Source of the DNA: Sphingomonas alpina
GTDB lineage: Bacteria > Pseudomonadota > Alphaproteobacteria > Sphingomonadales > Sphingomonadaceae
Length of the DNA: 64,000 nt
NCBI RefSeq assembly: GCF_014490665.1
Contig: NZ_CP061038.1
Location: forward strand, 3,162,001-3,226,000
Reading direction: 5' to 3'
The position numbers were made by a program, and so were the translations under genes. Below, one piece after another: positions 5,398 to 45,494 of the stretch. Under the pieces are notes generated by a model. That model saw only the letters and a program-made list of their open reading frames with translations. It was not told the origin of the DNA and did no database searches. How positions within the stretch are numbered: the first letter of the stretch is position 1; the number at the start of each line of letters is the position of its first letter.

Positions 5398-5529
5398 GGA
5401 TATCGAGCGCCGATTGCGGCTCAGATCCACACGGAGAAAGAGCGCGCCGGTATCAGTCCGGCGAGCGATGACATGCCCGATCCTGTATGAAGGTTGGATC
5501 GCCGCAGCTGAGCCGCGTGAGCGAGCGAC

Positions 5530-5617
5530 GAGAGATATGGGACACCGGTTGTTGCATATCTCGTCTGGCGTCGGCCCGACGAGAATCAAATAAATCAATT
5601 ATATATCAGGTATTTAA
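5530..5617 (-). repeat. 88-nt structured intergenic element, copy A
   Basis: Read on the minus strand it starts TTAAATACCTGATATATAA and ends in the hairpin GAGATATG (5562-5555) ... CATATCTC (5539-5532) whose loop holds CCGGTGT. Between them lies a second hairpin, CGTCGGGCCGACG (5581-5569), a perfect 6-bp stem. Same length and architecture as copies at 22349 and 32632. It lies between two convergent genes (4708-5397 plus, queE minus). The rest of this roughly 290-base gap shows no gene. Confidence 0.75.
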
Positions 5618-5685
5618 CTAGATACCACTGCCCTCAGGCATGACAATCGGGCCAGCACGAGGCCCAGCCTTGCCTGCTGAAAAGC

Positions 5686-20977: not shown

Positions 20978-22294
20978 ATGCGTTTGCTGCTTGCCCTGTT
21001 CGCCACCTTGCTCGTGCCCATTGTCGCGACCGCGCAGACGCCGCCGGCAGCATCCGTGAAGGCCGCCCCTGAACTCGAGGCAAGGATCGCCGAGCTTCCC
21101 ACGCTGCTCATGGGTGGAGGCGATTATAACGCCAGTTTCTCGGCCGCCTTCCGAACCGCGGTTCCGAAAGAGACGTTTGCGACAATCGGCACGCAGCTCT
21201 CCACATCGGATGGCAAGGTTACGGGGATCGAGCGCATCACGCCGGCCAGCGCGTGGAGCGCGGTCGTACTGGTCGGTTATGAGCGCGGCATCGCGACGAT
21301 GCAGATCGTGGCCGATCCGGCGCCACCACACCAGATCACCGGCCTGCTCATTACCGGCATGTCCGCACGCGAAGCGACGCTGGGTGCCGTGATCGACACG
21401 CTGGCGAAACTGCCCGGGGTGACCGGGTTCGCCTTTGCCAGGCTCGACGCGGCCGGTCCGGTCATGCTGCAGTCGCGCGCGCCGGACCGTGGCTTGGCAA
21501 TCGGATCGGAATTCAAGCTGGTGATTCTCGCCGAACTGGTCCGCTCGATCTCGGCCGGCGAGCGGCGCTGGGAGGACGAGATCACGCTGGCTGGCACCGG
21601 GTTGCCCGGCGGCGCCTATATGTCGAGCCCCGCCGGGACCAAGGTCTCGCTCTATGACCTGGCGGAAAAGATGATCTCGGTCAGCGACAACAGCGCGACC
21701 GATATCCTGCTCAAGCTCGCCGGTCGCGCAAAGGTCGAAGCGATGCTCGGCACGGTCGGCATCGCCGATCCCGCGGGCATGCGGCCGTTTCTGTCGACGC
21801 TCGAGCTCTTCAAGCTCAAGGGCGCATCAGGCGGTGCGCTCGGCGAGCGCTGGGCCGGCCTTGACGAGGCGGGGCGACGCGCGCTGCTCGACGGCGACGT
21901 CGCGAGGCTGCCGGTGTCCGCCATCAATCCGGCATTGTTTGCGAGCGGCAAGCCAATCCGCGTCGGCAGCATCGAATGGTTCGCATCCCCCGCCGACATG
22001 GTTCGGGTGATGGACTGGCTGCGCCGCCACACGGAGAGCGGCCCGGCCGCTCGCGCACGGGAAATCCTGGCGAAGAATTCGGGTGTCGGCGCAGGCCCGG
22101 CGGGGCGCTGGCAGTATCTCGGCTTCAAGGGTGGCTCGGAACCGGGGGTCATCGCCATGACCTTTCTGCTGCAGGGCAAGGATGGCCACTGGTATGCCAT
22201 GTCGGGAAGCTGGAACGACGTTGCCGCACCGGTCGACGAGGGCCGCTTCGCCGGACTGATGGCGCGCGCGGTGGAGCTGGCGGCGGGGAGCTAA
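20978..22294 (+). CDS. Exported serine hydrolase, class A beta-lactamase fold
   Basis: Protein of 438 residues with a signal peptide (cut after ATAQ, residue 20), an N-terminal domain of about 130 residues of the Cpl-7/ORF12-like type that is common ahead of such enzymes, and a class-A beta-lactamase-like domain with S177-E-F-K180 (SxxK), S236-D-N (SDN loop) and K384-G-G (KTG-like). A classical omega-loop ExxLN is not evident, so true beta-lactamase activity is uncertain; it may be a peptidase or esterase of the periplasm. 79 bases after parE. Confidence 0.82.
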   Translation: MRLLLALFATLLVPIVATAQTPPAASVKAAPELEARIAELPTLLMGGGDYNASFSAAFRTAVPKETFATIGTQLSTSDGKVTGIERITPASAWSAVVLVGYERGIATMQIVADPAPPHQITGLLITGMSAREATLGAVIDTLAKLPGVTGFAFARLDAAGPVMLQSRAPDRGLAIGSEFKLVILAELVRSISAGERRWEDEITLAGTGLPGGAYMSSPAGTKVSLYDLAEKMISVSDNSATDILLKLAGRAKVEAMLGTVGIADPAGMRPFLSTLELFKLKGASGGALGERWAGLDEAGRRALLDGDVARLPVSAINPALFASGKPIRVGSIEWFASPADMVRVMDWLRRHTESGPAARAREILAKNSGVGAGPAGRWQYLGFKGGSEPGVIAMTFLLQGKDGHWYAMSGSWNDVAAPVDEGRFAGLMARAVELAAGS

Positions 22295-22348
22295 CATGCC
22301 GTGTACTGAATCCGGTCCACCCGCGCCAAGCGCAGGCCATCAGGCGTA

Positions 22349-22436
22349 TTAAATGCTTGATATATAACTGCTTTATTGACGCATCGTCGAGGCGATGGCG
22401 GAGAGATATTTTACACGACCGGTGTAACATATCTCC
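22349..22436 (+). repeat. 88-nt structured intergenic element, copy B
   Basis: Starts TTAAATGCTTGATATATAA, then an internal hairpin CATCG-TCGAGG-CGATG (22382-22397), then the 3' hairpin GAGATAT...ATATCTC (22403-22434) with inner pairing TACAC/GTGTA around CCGG. An outer 7-bp inverted repeat CAGGCGT/ACGCCTG (22341-22347 and 22445-22451) flanks this copy only. Lies between the convergent serine hydrolase and membrane protein genes. Confidence 0.75.
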
Positions 22437-22492
22437 GGCAGTCCACGCCTGAGCAAACCCGCCGCACGAGCGTCGAAACAGCTCGGCCCGGG

Positions 22493-22753
22493 CTATTCTC
22501 CACTCATTCGCCGTTGATGATAACGCAGGCGCACGACAATCCCCGCCAGCATGTGCAGCACGCCGAGGATGATGAACACCAGCGGCAGGATCGACGGCAG
22601 CGCCGGCATCGAAAAATGCCGGAACAGCACCAGCGCCAGGCCCACCAGCATAAGAATCACGCCCATATAACGGATCGGCCGCGCAATGCCGCGCAACTCC
22701 GCGCGATAGGTTGCGCGTCCTTCGGGCGTGGCCAGATCAGGCGGCGGGATCAC
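22493..22753 (-). CDS. Small membrane protein
   Basis: Start GTG at 22753 overlaps the stop of the acetyltransferase gene (GTGA), giving 86 residues MIPPPDLATPEGRATYRAEL and so on; a longer frame exists but would lie inside the upstream gene. Two hydrophobic segments (VGVILMLVGLALVLF-like and SILPLVFIILGVLHMLAGIVV) with a basic C-terminus indicate a hairpin in the inner membrane. Function unknown. Last gene of a run of overlapping genes beginning at metZ. Confidence 0.7.
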   Translation of the reverse strand: MIPPPDLATPEGRATYRAELRGIARPIRYMGVILMLVGLALVLFRHFSMPALPSILPLVFIILGVLHMLAGIVVRLRYHQRRMSGE

Positions 22754-23283
22754 GCGGCCTTCCACTCGTCGCGCAACAATCCCCAGATGAAGCTGTCGCG
22801 CACGCCGATATGCGTCTCCCATTCGCCGCGCAGCCGCGCCTCGCGGGTGAAGCCGAGCCGCTCGAGCAGGGCGTTCGACGCGACATTGTCGGGATCGGTA
22901 TCGGCAAAGACCCGGCGATTACCTTCTTCCACGAACAGCAGGTCGAGCAGACGCGTCACCGCTTCATGCGCATAGCCCTGCCCCCAGGCGCTGCGCACAA
23001 GCATGTAACCGATCTCCACCACGCCGGTGCGGCGCTTGCCTGCGGCGATGGTGCCGATCGCCCGGTCGTCGCCCTTCAGCGTGATCGCCCAGCCGCGCCA
23101 GTCCCCGCCCTCCAGCATCGGCAGCAGATAATTGCGCGTTTCCTCGACGCTCACATGCGGAGCGCTCGACCACCATTGCATCAGCTCGGCATCGCGATAC
23201 GCCTCGAACAGCGCCTCGGCATCCTCGATCCGCTGCGGCCGCATGACCAGCCGCTCGCTTTCAAACCACTGCACGTCGGTCAT
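22750..23283 (-). CDS. GNAT acetyltransferase, RimJ/RimL type
   Basis: Protein of 177 residues starting MTDVQWFESERLVMRPQRIED, the typical ESERLxLRPxxxxDA opening of RimJ/RimL-like N-acetyltransferases. Acetyl-CoA motif SAWGQGYAHEAV (Q-x-x-G-x-A/G-type) near residue 105 and the late NVASNALLERLGFTREARLRG. It could acetylate a protein N-terminus or a small amine. Start chosen at 23283, one base past the preceding stop. Member of the overlapping gene run. Confidence 0.85.
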   Translation of the reverse strand: MTDVQWFESERLVMRPQRIEDAEALFEAYRDAELMQWWSSAPHVSVEETRNYLLPMLEGGDWRGWAITLKGDDRAIGTIAAGKRRTGVVEIGYMLVRSAWGQGYAHEAVTRLLDLLFVEEGNRRVFADTDPDNVASNALLERLGFTREARLRGEWETHIGVRDSFIWGLLRDEWKAA

Positions 23284-31833: not shown

Positions 31834-32555
31834 TGGCGAGATCCGTGAAGGCCATGCTTGCGTTTCTCGTCTTCTCCGGCCTTGCCGGTGTCAGCCAAGC
31901 TCGCACGCCGACATCGAAGGCCGAAGCGATCATCGCAGCGTCCAAACGCGCGACGGGCGGCACCGCATGGAATAAACCGCAAGGGTGCTTCGAACAGGGT
32001 ACGCACGCAGATGGCGCAATCTCCTATCGGACGAGATTCAGGCTCTTCGGCTATGGGATGCGTATCGACAGCGAGCGCGGCGACACCAGCCGCTCGATGG
32101 GATTCAACGGGAAAGCAAGTTGGCTGGCTGCCGGTGATGGCAAGGTTGATGTCCGATCCGACCCGGCGTCCCTCCGCGAAGGCATCGTCACAAACTACCT
32201 CAGCATAAACGGGTTCTTCTTCCCCGATCGCTTCCCGGCCAGGTTCAAATATCTTCGCGAAGTACGGGAGGCCGGCAAGAGGCTTCATGTGATCGAGATC
32301 ACGCCCCAGGGAGGTCGACCCTTCGAGGCCTGGTTCGACAGTCGCACCCACCTGATCCAGCGCGTGGTTGACCGCCACGGCGCGTCCCCGACCACGGTGG
32401 AGGCCGGCGACTATCGCAAGGTCGGCGACTTCACGATCGCCTTCAAACTGAATGTGCTGGGACGGGACGGCGCGGTGGCCGACAAAGGCACCGTGACATC
32501 GTTCCACTGCGGTCCGATTGAAAGCACCATTTTCGATCCGCCGCTTCCGCGTTGA
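31830..32555 (+). CDS. Exported protein, LolA/outer-membrane-lipoprotein-sorting-like
   Basis: Starts at the double ATG (31830), with GGGGAGGA immediately before it and an ATGA overlap with the upstream gene. A signal peptide (MMARSVKAMLAFLVFSGLAGVSQA) precedes a domain beginning AEAIIAASKRATGGTAWNKPQ and containing FNGKASWLAAGDGKVDV and YRKVGDFTIAFKLNVL; this beta-rich outline is like LolA-type or PadR-operon secreted proteins. 241 residues. Function unknown; the gene is the last of the PadR operon. Confidence 0.72.
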   Translation: MMARSVKAMLAFLVFSGLAGVSQARTPTSKAEAIIAASKRATGGTAWNKPQGCFEQGTHADGAISYRTRFRLFGYGMRIDSERGDTSRSMGFNGKASWLAAGDGKVDVRSDPASLREGIVTNYLSINGFFFPDRFPARFKYLREVREAGKRLHVIEITPQGGRPFEAWFDSRTHLIQRVVDRHGASPTTVEAGDYRKVGDFTIAFKLNVLGRDGAVADKGTVTSFHCGPIESTIFDPPLPR

Positions 32556-32631: not shown

Positions 32632-32719
32632 TTAAGCATTTGATATAACAGTATTATACCATCCTCTCACAGAGGTGACGATGGAAAGGATATGCGACAT
32701 TCCGGTGTCCCATATCTCC
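32632..32719 (+). repeat. 88-nt structured intergenic element, copy C
   Basis: Starts TTAAGCATTTGATATAA, has an internal hairpin CCATC-CTCT...AGAG...GATGG (32659-32684), and ends GGATATG...CATATCTCC (32688-32719) with CCGGTGT in the loop side. Most diverged copy, but same length and motif order as copies A and B. It lies between the convergent PadR-operon and glyoxalase-like genes. Confidence 0.7.
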
Positions 32720-32800: not shown

Positions 32801-33178
32801 TCAGCCTCGCTGATACACTGCCTCCAGGCGATGGCCGTCAGGGTCGATGACAAAGGCTGCATAATAATGGTCGCCATAGTCGGGCCGCAGGCCCGGCGCG
32901 CCGTCATCGGTCCCGCCATGGGCGAGCGCGGCTACATGAAATTGATCGACCGCGTCCTCATCATCGGCGTCAAAGGCCAGATGAAACCCCTGATCCAGGC
33001 CGATAGCCTCTTTTGAGCGCTGCTTCAGCGCCAGACCCTCGGTATCCGGCCTTGGGCCATAGCCGACCGATTCATCGCCGGTGAAGACGCGTGAGCTGCC
33101 GAGGCACCGGAGTGCGGCATCGTAGAACAGGATCGACCGGGCCAAATCGGAAACGCCGATGGAGAGATGACTGATCAA
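32801..33178 (-). CDS. Glyoxalase/VOC-family protein
   Basis: Protein of 125 residues beginning at TTG 33178 (MISHLSIGVSDLARSILFYDAAL), preceded by GGAG at 7 bases; this start reproduces the standard family N-terminus. C-terminal DHYYAAFVIDPDGHRLEAVYQ is the second VOC strand-helix-strand with the metal Glu. Members bind a divalent metal and act in glyoxalase, dioxygenase or resistance reactions; the exact reaction is not predictable. Confidence 0.85.
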   Translation of the reverse strand: MISHLSIGVSDLARSILFYDAALRCLGSSRVFTGDESVGYGPRPDTEGLALKQRSKEAIGLDQGFHLAFDADDEDAVDQFHVAALAHGGTDDGAPGLRPDYGDHYYAAFVIDPDGHRLEAVYQRG

Positions 33179-33258
33179 GATGAAACTCCAGAATTGGCGG
33201 GCTCGCACCTTGTGCCTAATTCAACCGAACGATGACCGTAACCCCGGTCCGCCGGACA

Positions 33259-44936: not shown

Positions 44937-45494
44937 ATGAACGAACAGACGCTTGAATCGAACGAGGCGCAGGACACCGCCGGAGAAACGCCGGCCGCGA
45001 TAGAGACGCGCGAGCGCAGGCACGGGCCGGGAAGGCGTTTTGTCAAAGGCATATCCGGCAACCCCGCCGGGCGGCCACCCGGTCGCCGTGCGACGGGCGC
45101 GCGTGGCGACCGCCTGCCCGGCGCGGACCAGCCGACCCGGGCGATGATCCTGGAGGAAGCCTATCGAATGGTGCGGGTGGAGGATGCGGACGGCGAGATC
45201 GAGATGCCGGCGAACCAGGCAGTGTTCCGGGCGCTGACCGCAGCGGCGATGCGGGGCAACCAGCTCGCGCAGCAGCGCTGGACCGCGATCGTGCGATTGG
45301 CCGAGCAGGAGCAGAAGGACGCGCAGGTCGCCCTGTTCAATATGCTGGAACGCGGCGGCGTGAATGAGCGCTATTGCGCCGAGCAACGCGGATACGTGCC
45401 GTTATGGACGAGCGACGACGATATCCTGATCGACGGGGTATCGGGGGTGGCGGTGGTGCGACCAATGTCGGGGGAGAGTGAGGATGAGGCGTAG
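44937..45494 (+). CDS. DUF5681-domain protein
   Basis: Protein of 185 residues with the DUF5681 hallmark GRRFVKGISGNPAGRPPGRR at about 27-46 (the F-x-K-G-x-S-G-N-P-x-G-R-P motif), followed by a helical part (TRAMILEEAYRMVRVED, ANQAVFRALTAAAMRGNQLAQQRW). Such proteins occur next to mobile or phage-like genes and may bind DNA via the basic motif; role unknown. ATG at 44937. Preceded by the AACAGCCAGC repeats. Confidence 0.8.
   Translation: MNEQTLESNEAQDTAGETPAAIETRERRHGPGRRFVKGISGNPAGRPPGRRATGARGDRLPGADQPTRAMILEEAYRMVRVEDADGEIEMPANQAVFRALTAAAMRGNQLAQQRWTAIVRLAEQEQKDAQVALFNMLERGGVNERYCAEQRGYVPLWTSDDDILIDGVSGVAVVRPMSGESEDEA

Follow-up and report, generated by a model that had tools for sequence, protein, structure and literature searches.

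What is the sequence of 88 nucleotides (nt) at positions 22349-22436 (plus strand) of a 64,000-nt stretch of the Sphingomonas alpina genome (contig NZ_CP061038.1, positions 3,162,001 to 3,226,000; hereafter, the window), and what links it to two similar sequences in the window, at 5530-5617 (minus) and 32632-32719 (plus)? A preliminary description had placed three copies at these positions, where all of them were located, and had proposed a family of structured elements. We found that the palindromic part of these repeats, module B, also stands 5' of stray chromosomal genes for TerS-like proteins (TerS and TerL being the small and large subunits of the terminase, with which phages package DNA); therefore, the repeats are probably TerS binding sites that have spread through the chromosome. 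Judging from sequence comparisons, we consider it rather probable that they are dispersed control-region copies of chromosomal orphan terminase cassettes, with B as a predicted TerS operator or pac-like site and the geneless copies as non-autonomous derivatives.

Modular repeats and orphan terminase genes

The modules were located with profile models (nhmmer) run over the loci, with the flanks past the 88 nt printed. The repeat begins with module A (TTAAnTATCTGATATATAAnnATATTAT), followed by about 25 variable nt, one to three B palindromes (GAGATATGnnACA..CCGGTGTnnCATATCTC) and, often, module C (GATTCAA..CTCTTTCTCAGTGTCGAAAACA). The 88 nt originally taken for the whole element represent modules A and B, the 5' part of this larger repeat.

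Further copies, sought genome-wide and in relatives, were found in S. alpina itself, in Sphingomonas sp. So64.6b (G038) and in Sphingomonas sp. ERG5 (G144). The pattern TTAAnnnnnTGATATA-N35-60-CCGGTGTnnnATATC has 11 exact matches in the 5.2 Mb S. alpina genome and none when reversed, and the right arm of B, CGGTGTnnCATATCTC, has 86 exact matches and 132 with at most one mismatch, compared to one in each reversed control; thus, these counts are far beyond chance. The former pattern is absent from 30 relatives. A looser conserved-end pattern, run over one genome per species (84,980), was found only in ERG5 (5 places) and in no viral contig; it should be noted that this pattern is still strict and misses So64.6b, which the right-arm search detects. 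Among 295 genomes of the genus, the right arm occurs in five: S. alpina (86), So64.6b (42), ERG5 (30), G085 (1) and G249 (1). The single arm in G085, to which the B model gives no support, is probably a chance match; the one in G249, followed by GATTCAA, is probably a real copy. The three B-rich genomes are apparently closely related, their longest matched stretch being 85-87% identical. More than 130 palindrome arms, the patchy distribution, and the existence of geneless and gene-bearing versions support the suggestion of a dispersed family that may be a mobile miniature element.

In S. alpina, the B-GATTCAA region also precedes six intact frames for a TerS-like protein of 162 amino acids (aa); in these six, C is lacking and the end of B is 59-62 nt 5' of the frame; TerS-like sequence is present in 6 of the 94 loci of this genome (duplicates counted), and the rest are without it. 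Close TerS copies are confined to exactly the three B-rich genomes, namely S. alpina (six intact and one fragment, 68%), So64.6b (five apparently intact, one with a damaged start at 816040, and two degenerate) and ERG5 (two), the intact copies being at least 75% identical to the query. The 162-aa protein matches the phage TerS family phrog_309 (E 1.4e-31) and 404 of 50,697 phage records, with a best identity of 46% over residues 4-120 (phage CUB19); its match to the Sf6 TerS fold is weak, and the fold lists admit other families too. An open TerL frame follows TerS at L143 in S. alpina, at L148, L149 and L151 in So64.6b, and at L160 in ERG5. These frames carry GHGIGKS, FDEASG and three acidic motifs, and the TerL of L143 matches phrog_2 (E 2.5e-39), with no TerL match in Pfam or among PDB sequences; padloc matches were marginal. 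L143, L149 and L160 share one genomic location, beside genes that we take, by eye, to be ast genes. The ratio of nonsynonymous to synonymous substitution rates (dN/dS) for the six S. alpina TerS copies is 0.06-0.35 (median 0.18, 15 pairs), and the median for clade-1 TerS, that is, 13 sequences of this kind, is 0.22 (78 pairs); therefore, the clade-1 copies are old and constrained.

Another orphan TerL gene (74% DNA identity) was seen at G000:C1 3572278-3573810 (L207 10279-11811, minus). It is preceded by genes for a 93-aa protein and a protein that looks, by eye, like a LexA-like helix-turn-helix protein, and the 20 kb inspected by eye show no recognisable phage structural genes; this locus looks like a second type of orphan terminase cassette.

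In a second TerS clade, seen in other species, the chassis is the same and the palindrome differs; most copies of this palindrome stand without the gene. More distant TerS-like genes (about 30-50% identity) of other Sphingomonas also have GATTCA 34-43 nt 5' of the ATG. The box is present at 49 of 59 distinct TerS loci, clade 1 included, the ten exceptions being phage-like or short (L117, L122-L124), truncated (L138), damaged at the start (L246) or uncertain in their starts (L224, L236, L237, L239); among TerS relatives on viral contigs (19 found, 18 examined, 17 with upstream sequence), it occurs in 1 of 17 (L297). The upstream inverted repeat is AAATGTCAG..CTGACATTT in clade 2 and TGACAAAATT-50 to 75 nt-AATTTTGTCA in clade 3. 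Across 12 chosen genomes, the clade-2 palindrome (at most one mismatch) was found 21 times in G276, 5 in G118, 4 in G117 and 2 in G249, and 0 times when reversed; these are the four genomes in which clade-2 TerS was seen, and the other eight have none (the TerS count of G276, with 12 candidates scored, is a lower bound, and 9 of 10 TerS-like matches of G248 were examined). Outside known TerS loci there are 18 clade-2 regions (15 in G276, 2 in G117, 1 in G118; L276 and L277 were dropped, having no pattern match). Within 298-425 nt 3' of these palindromes, no TerS-like sequence was found except a 35-residue TerS start at L269; 14 regions have GATTCA within 108 nt, four have a tail like CTCTTTCTCA of module C (0.04 expected), and many have an AT-rich A box.

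Two further observations concern such palindromes. At L260, L266, L268, L274 and L275 of G276, another palindrome, ACATTGTACAG..CTGTACAATGT, or parts of it, adjoins or lies close to the clade-2 palindrome, which may point to stacked sites for different proteins. At L224 and L237, the TerS-like genes are accompanied by an inverted repeat, AATTCCCTGTT..AACAGGGAATT, that may represent a fourth type of palindrome.

Structure and placement of the repeat

Module A is AT-rich, with the consensus TTAAgTATCTGATATATAAnnATTTTAT (61 aligned copies), and is recognisable in 89 of 103 loci tested, in 46 of which it starts 53-55 nt 5' of B. Among 90 elements of S. alpina, B is present once in 71, twice in 11 and three times in 7, and was not found in one; at L010, the left arm is lost and the right arm kept. 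The forms of 111 B units are GTTACA..TGTAAC (36), GGGACA..TGTCCC (21) and imperfect (54). An alignment of the first 11 copies contains no two-sided pair changes. Across the 111 units, the inner variable pair is Watson-Crick in 81, compared to a shuffle mean of 48.6, and the outer one in 68, compared to 41.2; none of 2000 shuffles reaches either value, with kinship among the units ignored. Module C starts with GATTCAACCATCACACAGGATCGGGCATG and ends with CTCTTTCTCAGTGTCGAAAACAGCATTGCC (tail aligned in 49 copies); its presence in 48 of 84 placed geneless copies is an inflated share, because 30 loci came from a BLAST query containing C. The copies are mostly 70-84% identical. At L004, L006 and L031, another repeat (CCCGCGAAAGCGGGGATCCCGC-like, inverted), a separate family, stands immediately 5' of the elements.

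The structural claims of the preliminary description hold in part. The window copies measure 87, 88 and 88 nt (from TTAA to the base after ATATCTC), and the 11 exact-pattern copies of the genome 87-89 nt; therefore, a length of "exactly 88" is only approximate. In the 3' hairpin, the third copy reads AGGATATG in place of GAGATAT. Compensatory changes in the internal hairpin are seen in the three window copies and are weak across the family: the A-B spacer is poorly conserved, with a faint CGnCGAnGCGnCG consensus that corresponds to this hairpin, and in 12 of 61 spacers the fold is better than in 95% of the mononucleotide shuffles, where about 3 such spacers would be expected (mean z of all, -0.69). 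This hairpin resembles a common sequence that is fading rather than a stem that is being maintained. The 88-nt stretches of the 11 copies have z from +0.07 to -4.48, most of them folding better than their shuffles. Neither a known Rfam family nor a classical repetitive extragenic palindromic (REP) sequence had been recognised, and this stands: the window has no Rfam matches, five loci have only matches far below the gathering threshold, none on the element, and the GTAG head is absent from the 11 aligned copies read by eye.

The 90 S. alpina elements were placed with a crude codon-usage gene finder (L061 and duplicate loci left out), and one of them overlaps a predicted gene. Among the 84 geneless copies, convergent genes flank 44 (a raw count, without genome-wide background), both neighbours run against the element in 17, divergent genes flank 13, and genes in the direction of the element flank 10. 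Elements avoiding promoters would show such placement, and a role at the 3' ends of genes may also be considered. A replication-polarity signal was rejected as the main explanation: the 72 exact-arm clusters (44 plus, 28 minus) are distributed similarly in both halves of the contig, the start of which was assumed to be near the origin.

Weighing of the explanations

We propose that a full cassette comprises A, palindrome B, a predicted promoter (GATTCAA..CTATC..ATG) and a TerS-like gene, in some cases followed by TerL. TerS, a predicted helix-turn-helix protein, would be made from one cassette and would bind B both at the promoter of that cassette and wherever B is dispersed, so that B would serve as a pac-like site and as the operator of an autoregulated TerS promoter. 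The geneless copies (A-Bn-C and A-B), all three window copies included, would have spread through the chromosome as non-autonomous derivatives, their multiplication being driven by the terminase, by a transposase, or by recombination with gene conversion. The proposal is built on the linkage of palindrome and gene, the common architecture, the distribution, the second palindrome/TerS pair, and the purifying selection on the TerS paralogs. The variable spacing of the B arms and the distant arms of clade 3 would suit a TerS of several subunits; a rigid dimer, or one RNA hairpin, would agree less well with them.

Several observations weigh against this proposal. The arms of B are 5 to 7 nt apart, an unusual variation for a rigid dimer site, and, as a caution, the TerS domain of the related SF6 is reported to have little sequence specificity in its binding (PMC4737164). 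No matching phage record spans 80% of the 162-aa protein, and selection looks weaker in clade 2 (dN/dS 0.45, 36 pairs). In So64.6b, the 93-94% identity of TerS-TerL copies extends from B to a point about 25 nt beyond TerL, and the sequences just 5' of B differ. The similarity starts at B, not at A, except that one pair also shares 48 nt at a greater distance 5'; gene conversion would explain this pattern no less than transposition would. An origin of C by internal deletion of TerS and TerL is only suggestive, because L107 is the sole clade-1 TerS gene with the CTCTTTCTCA tail of C behind it. G249 has one B copy and is without clade-1 TerS, and, because the B-rich genomes seem to be close relatives, the co-occurrence of B and TerS partly reflects shared ancestry. 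Finally, neither a clean empty site nor a target duplication was found, the intergenic sequences of So64.6b and ERG5 being too diverged.

The alternative that survives best, although we regard it as unlikely, is that the repeats are ordinary miniature inverted-repeat transposable elements or BOX-like repeats, moved by an unrelated transposase, with the TerS genes as passengers. The modular A-Bn-C layout, the 70-84% identity, the intergenic placement and the patchy distribution are typical of small interspersed repeats, and BOX is judged parasitic in the excerpted source (PMC3049150). However, each of two TerS clades has a palindrome of its own on a common chassis, concentrated in the genomes with that clade, and no terminal inverted repeats or target duplications are apparent by eye in the 49 aligned tails and flanks read, where the element ends are imprecise.

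A doubtful possibility is terminase-driven mobile DNA: TerS-TerL, a packaging ATPase with an RNase-H-fold nuclease, would recognise palindrome B and mobilise a selfish chromosomal element together with the geneless derivatives of that element, using neither capsid nor transposase.

It is also conceivable, if quite unlikely, that TerS-like proteins are domesticated host transcription factors and the palindromes their genome-wide regulon. Such a role would agree with the purifying selection on the TerS paralogs and with L059 (S. alpina) and L110 (So64.6b), where two B palindromes and GATTCAA..CTATTC..ATG are kept 5' of one gene, presumably topoisomerase-IV-A-like, a possible case of promoter co-option. 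Conversely, 44 of the 84 geneless copies have convergent neighbours, and only 23 are followed by a gene that runs the same way as the element; in addition, the distribution is very patchy, and the copy at 22349-22436 is absent at the orthologous site of So64.6b.

Packaging signals of a resident prophage or a gene transfer agent are very improbable. TerS and TerL are packaging enzymes, and the pac site of SPP1 lies at the TerS promoter in the excerpted account, but GTA_TIM (PF13547), a gene of the Rhodobacter-type transfer agent cluster, was found in none of nine genomes, with the Caulobacter control detected. Phage_portal (PF04860, the sole portal family searched) is present in ERG5, G117, G118, G276 and G300 and absent from S. 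alpina and So64.6b, so packaging does not seem to be the present use in these two richest genomes. The cassette neighbours recognised by eye also look like housekeeping genes (ast operon, RNase E).

The least probable explanation is a structured RNA (a small RNA, a 3'-UTR or terminator element, or an RNA-processing signal as first suggested), which draws its positive support from the foldability of most of the 11 copies, the covarying B arms and the 44 convergent placements, and which is opposed by the absence of Rfam matches on the element, by an internal hairpin that is weak and lost in most copies, by an A module that is an AT-rich box, by clade-3 arms too far apart for one tight hairpin, by the right arm kept alone at L010, by the lack, by eye, of a T run after B, and by the strongest link of the repeat being to the gene of a DNA-binding TerS.

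The window copies and known systems

The copy at 22349-22436 (plus) consists of A and B, with no C found and no GATTCAA seen downstream, and lies between convergent predicted genes at 20978-22294 (plus) and 22493-22765 (minus). Its module A (TTAAATGCTTGATATATAAC...) occupies 22347-22372 (plus; A model, E 0.0015) and its palindrome (GAGATATTTTACACGACCGGTGTAACATATCTCC) 22403-22436 (plus; B model, E 1.1e-9), with an exact right arm at genome position 3184420. In the orthologous intergenic region of So64.6b (window 22289-22489; L170 about 2798-2936), another inverted repeat, TTCGACAGGCTCAGGGCGAACGG, stands in its stead, and the ERG5 contig has no match to the upstream flank. The minus-strand copy carries A at 5593-5618 (E 7.8e-5), B at 5532-5562 (E 8.8e-10) and C at 5426-5502 (GATCCAACC...CTCTTTCTCCGTGT; C model, E 1.2e-21; flank read), all on the minus strand, and the element spans at least 5426-5617. 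In the third copy, module A (TTAAGCATTTGATATAACAGTATTATAC; 32632-32659, plus) was recognised by eye, the A model giving no match there at E 1; the palindrome occupies 32689-32719 (plus; E 5e-10), no C was found, and the convergent predicted genes are at 31845-32555 (plus) and 32801-33208 (minus). No syntenic match to this copy was present among the 40 scored candidates per genome in So64.6b and ERG5. Elsewhere in the window, 44937-45494 encodes a predicted protein with a GISGNPAGRPPGR motif, which reminds us of DUF5681 proteins, presumably neighbours of terminases.

Small interspersed palindromic repeats are common, and the protein that drives them is often obscure. The repeats described here are tied to an orphan terminase with two palindrome/TerS pairs; therefore, the link can be tested directly. 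Should TerS prove to bind the repeats, proteins of phage packaging would either have turned into regulators of the chromosome or be driving mobile elements of a new kind. Small interspersed repeats are a known kind, and their link to terminases, with clade-matched palindromes, is new as far as searched: the element was not found described in the open-licence PMC literature, judged by titles and the starts of abstracts.

One of the closest parallels is the pac/TerS region of SPP1-like phages; in SPP1, in the excerpted account, the pac site spans the TerS promoters and the start of the gene and holds repeats, so that repeats and promoters stand directly 5' of TerS (PMC4737164). In contrast, the Sphingomonas repeats are inverted rather than direct, more than 100 are dispersed, mostly without the gene, and no phage structural genes were recognised nearby. 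Pneumococcal BOX elements have the layout boxA-boxBn-boxC. Like the Sphingomonas repeats, they are modular, interspersed, variable in the number of central units, intergenic and lineage-restricted, as far as the excerpted source goes (PMC3049150). Unlike BOX, which we compared in layout and not in sequence, the Sphingomonas repeats have their control region in common with a family of terminase genes. REP sequences and bacterial interspersed mosaic elements (BIME) are likewise numerous intergenic palindromes, recognised by a protein family to which they are linked, the REP-associated tyrosine transposases (RAYT); REP has a GTAG head at the foot of the hairpin, whereas the Sphingomonas repeats lack this head and are associated with TerS/TerL. 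Phage-inducible chromosomal islands (PICI), including the Staphylococcus aureus pathogenicity islands (SaPI), are satellites with a TerS and a pac site of their own, located apart from the phage, as the cassettes have a TerS and a predicted pac-like site; no integrase was recognised by eye in the loci read, no search being aimed at integrases. Unlike these islands, the Sphingomonas cassettes are about 2.1 kb or smaller and occur many times per genome.
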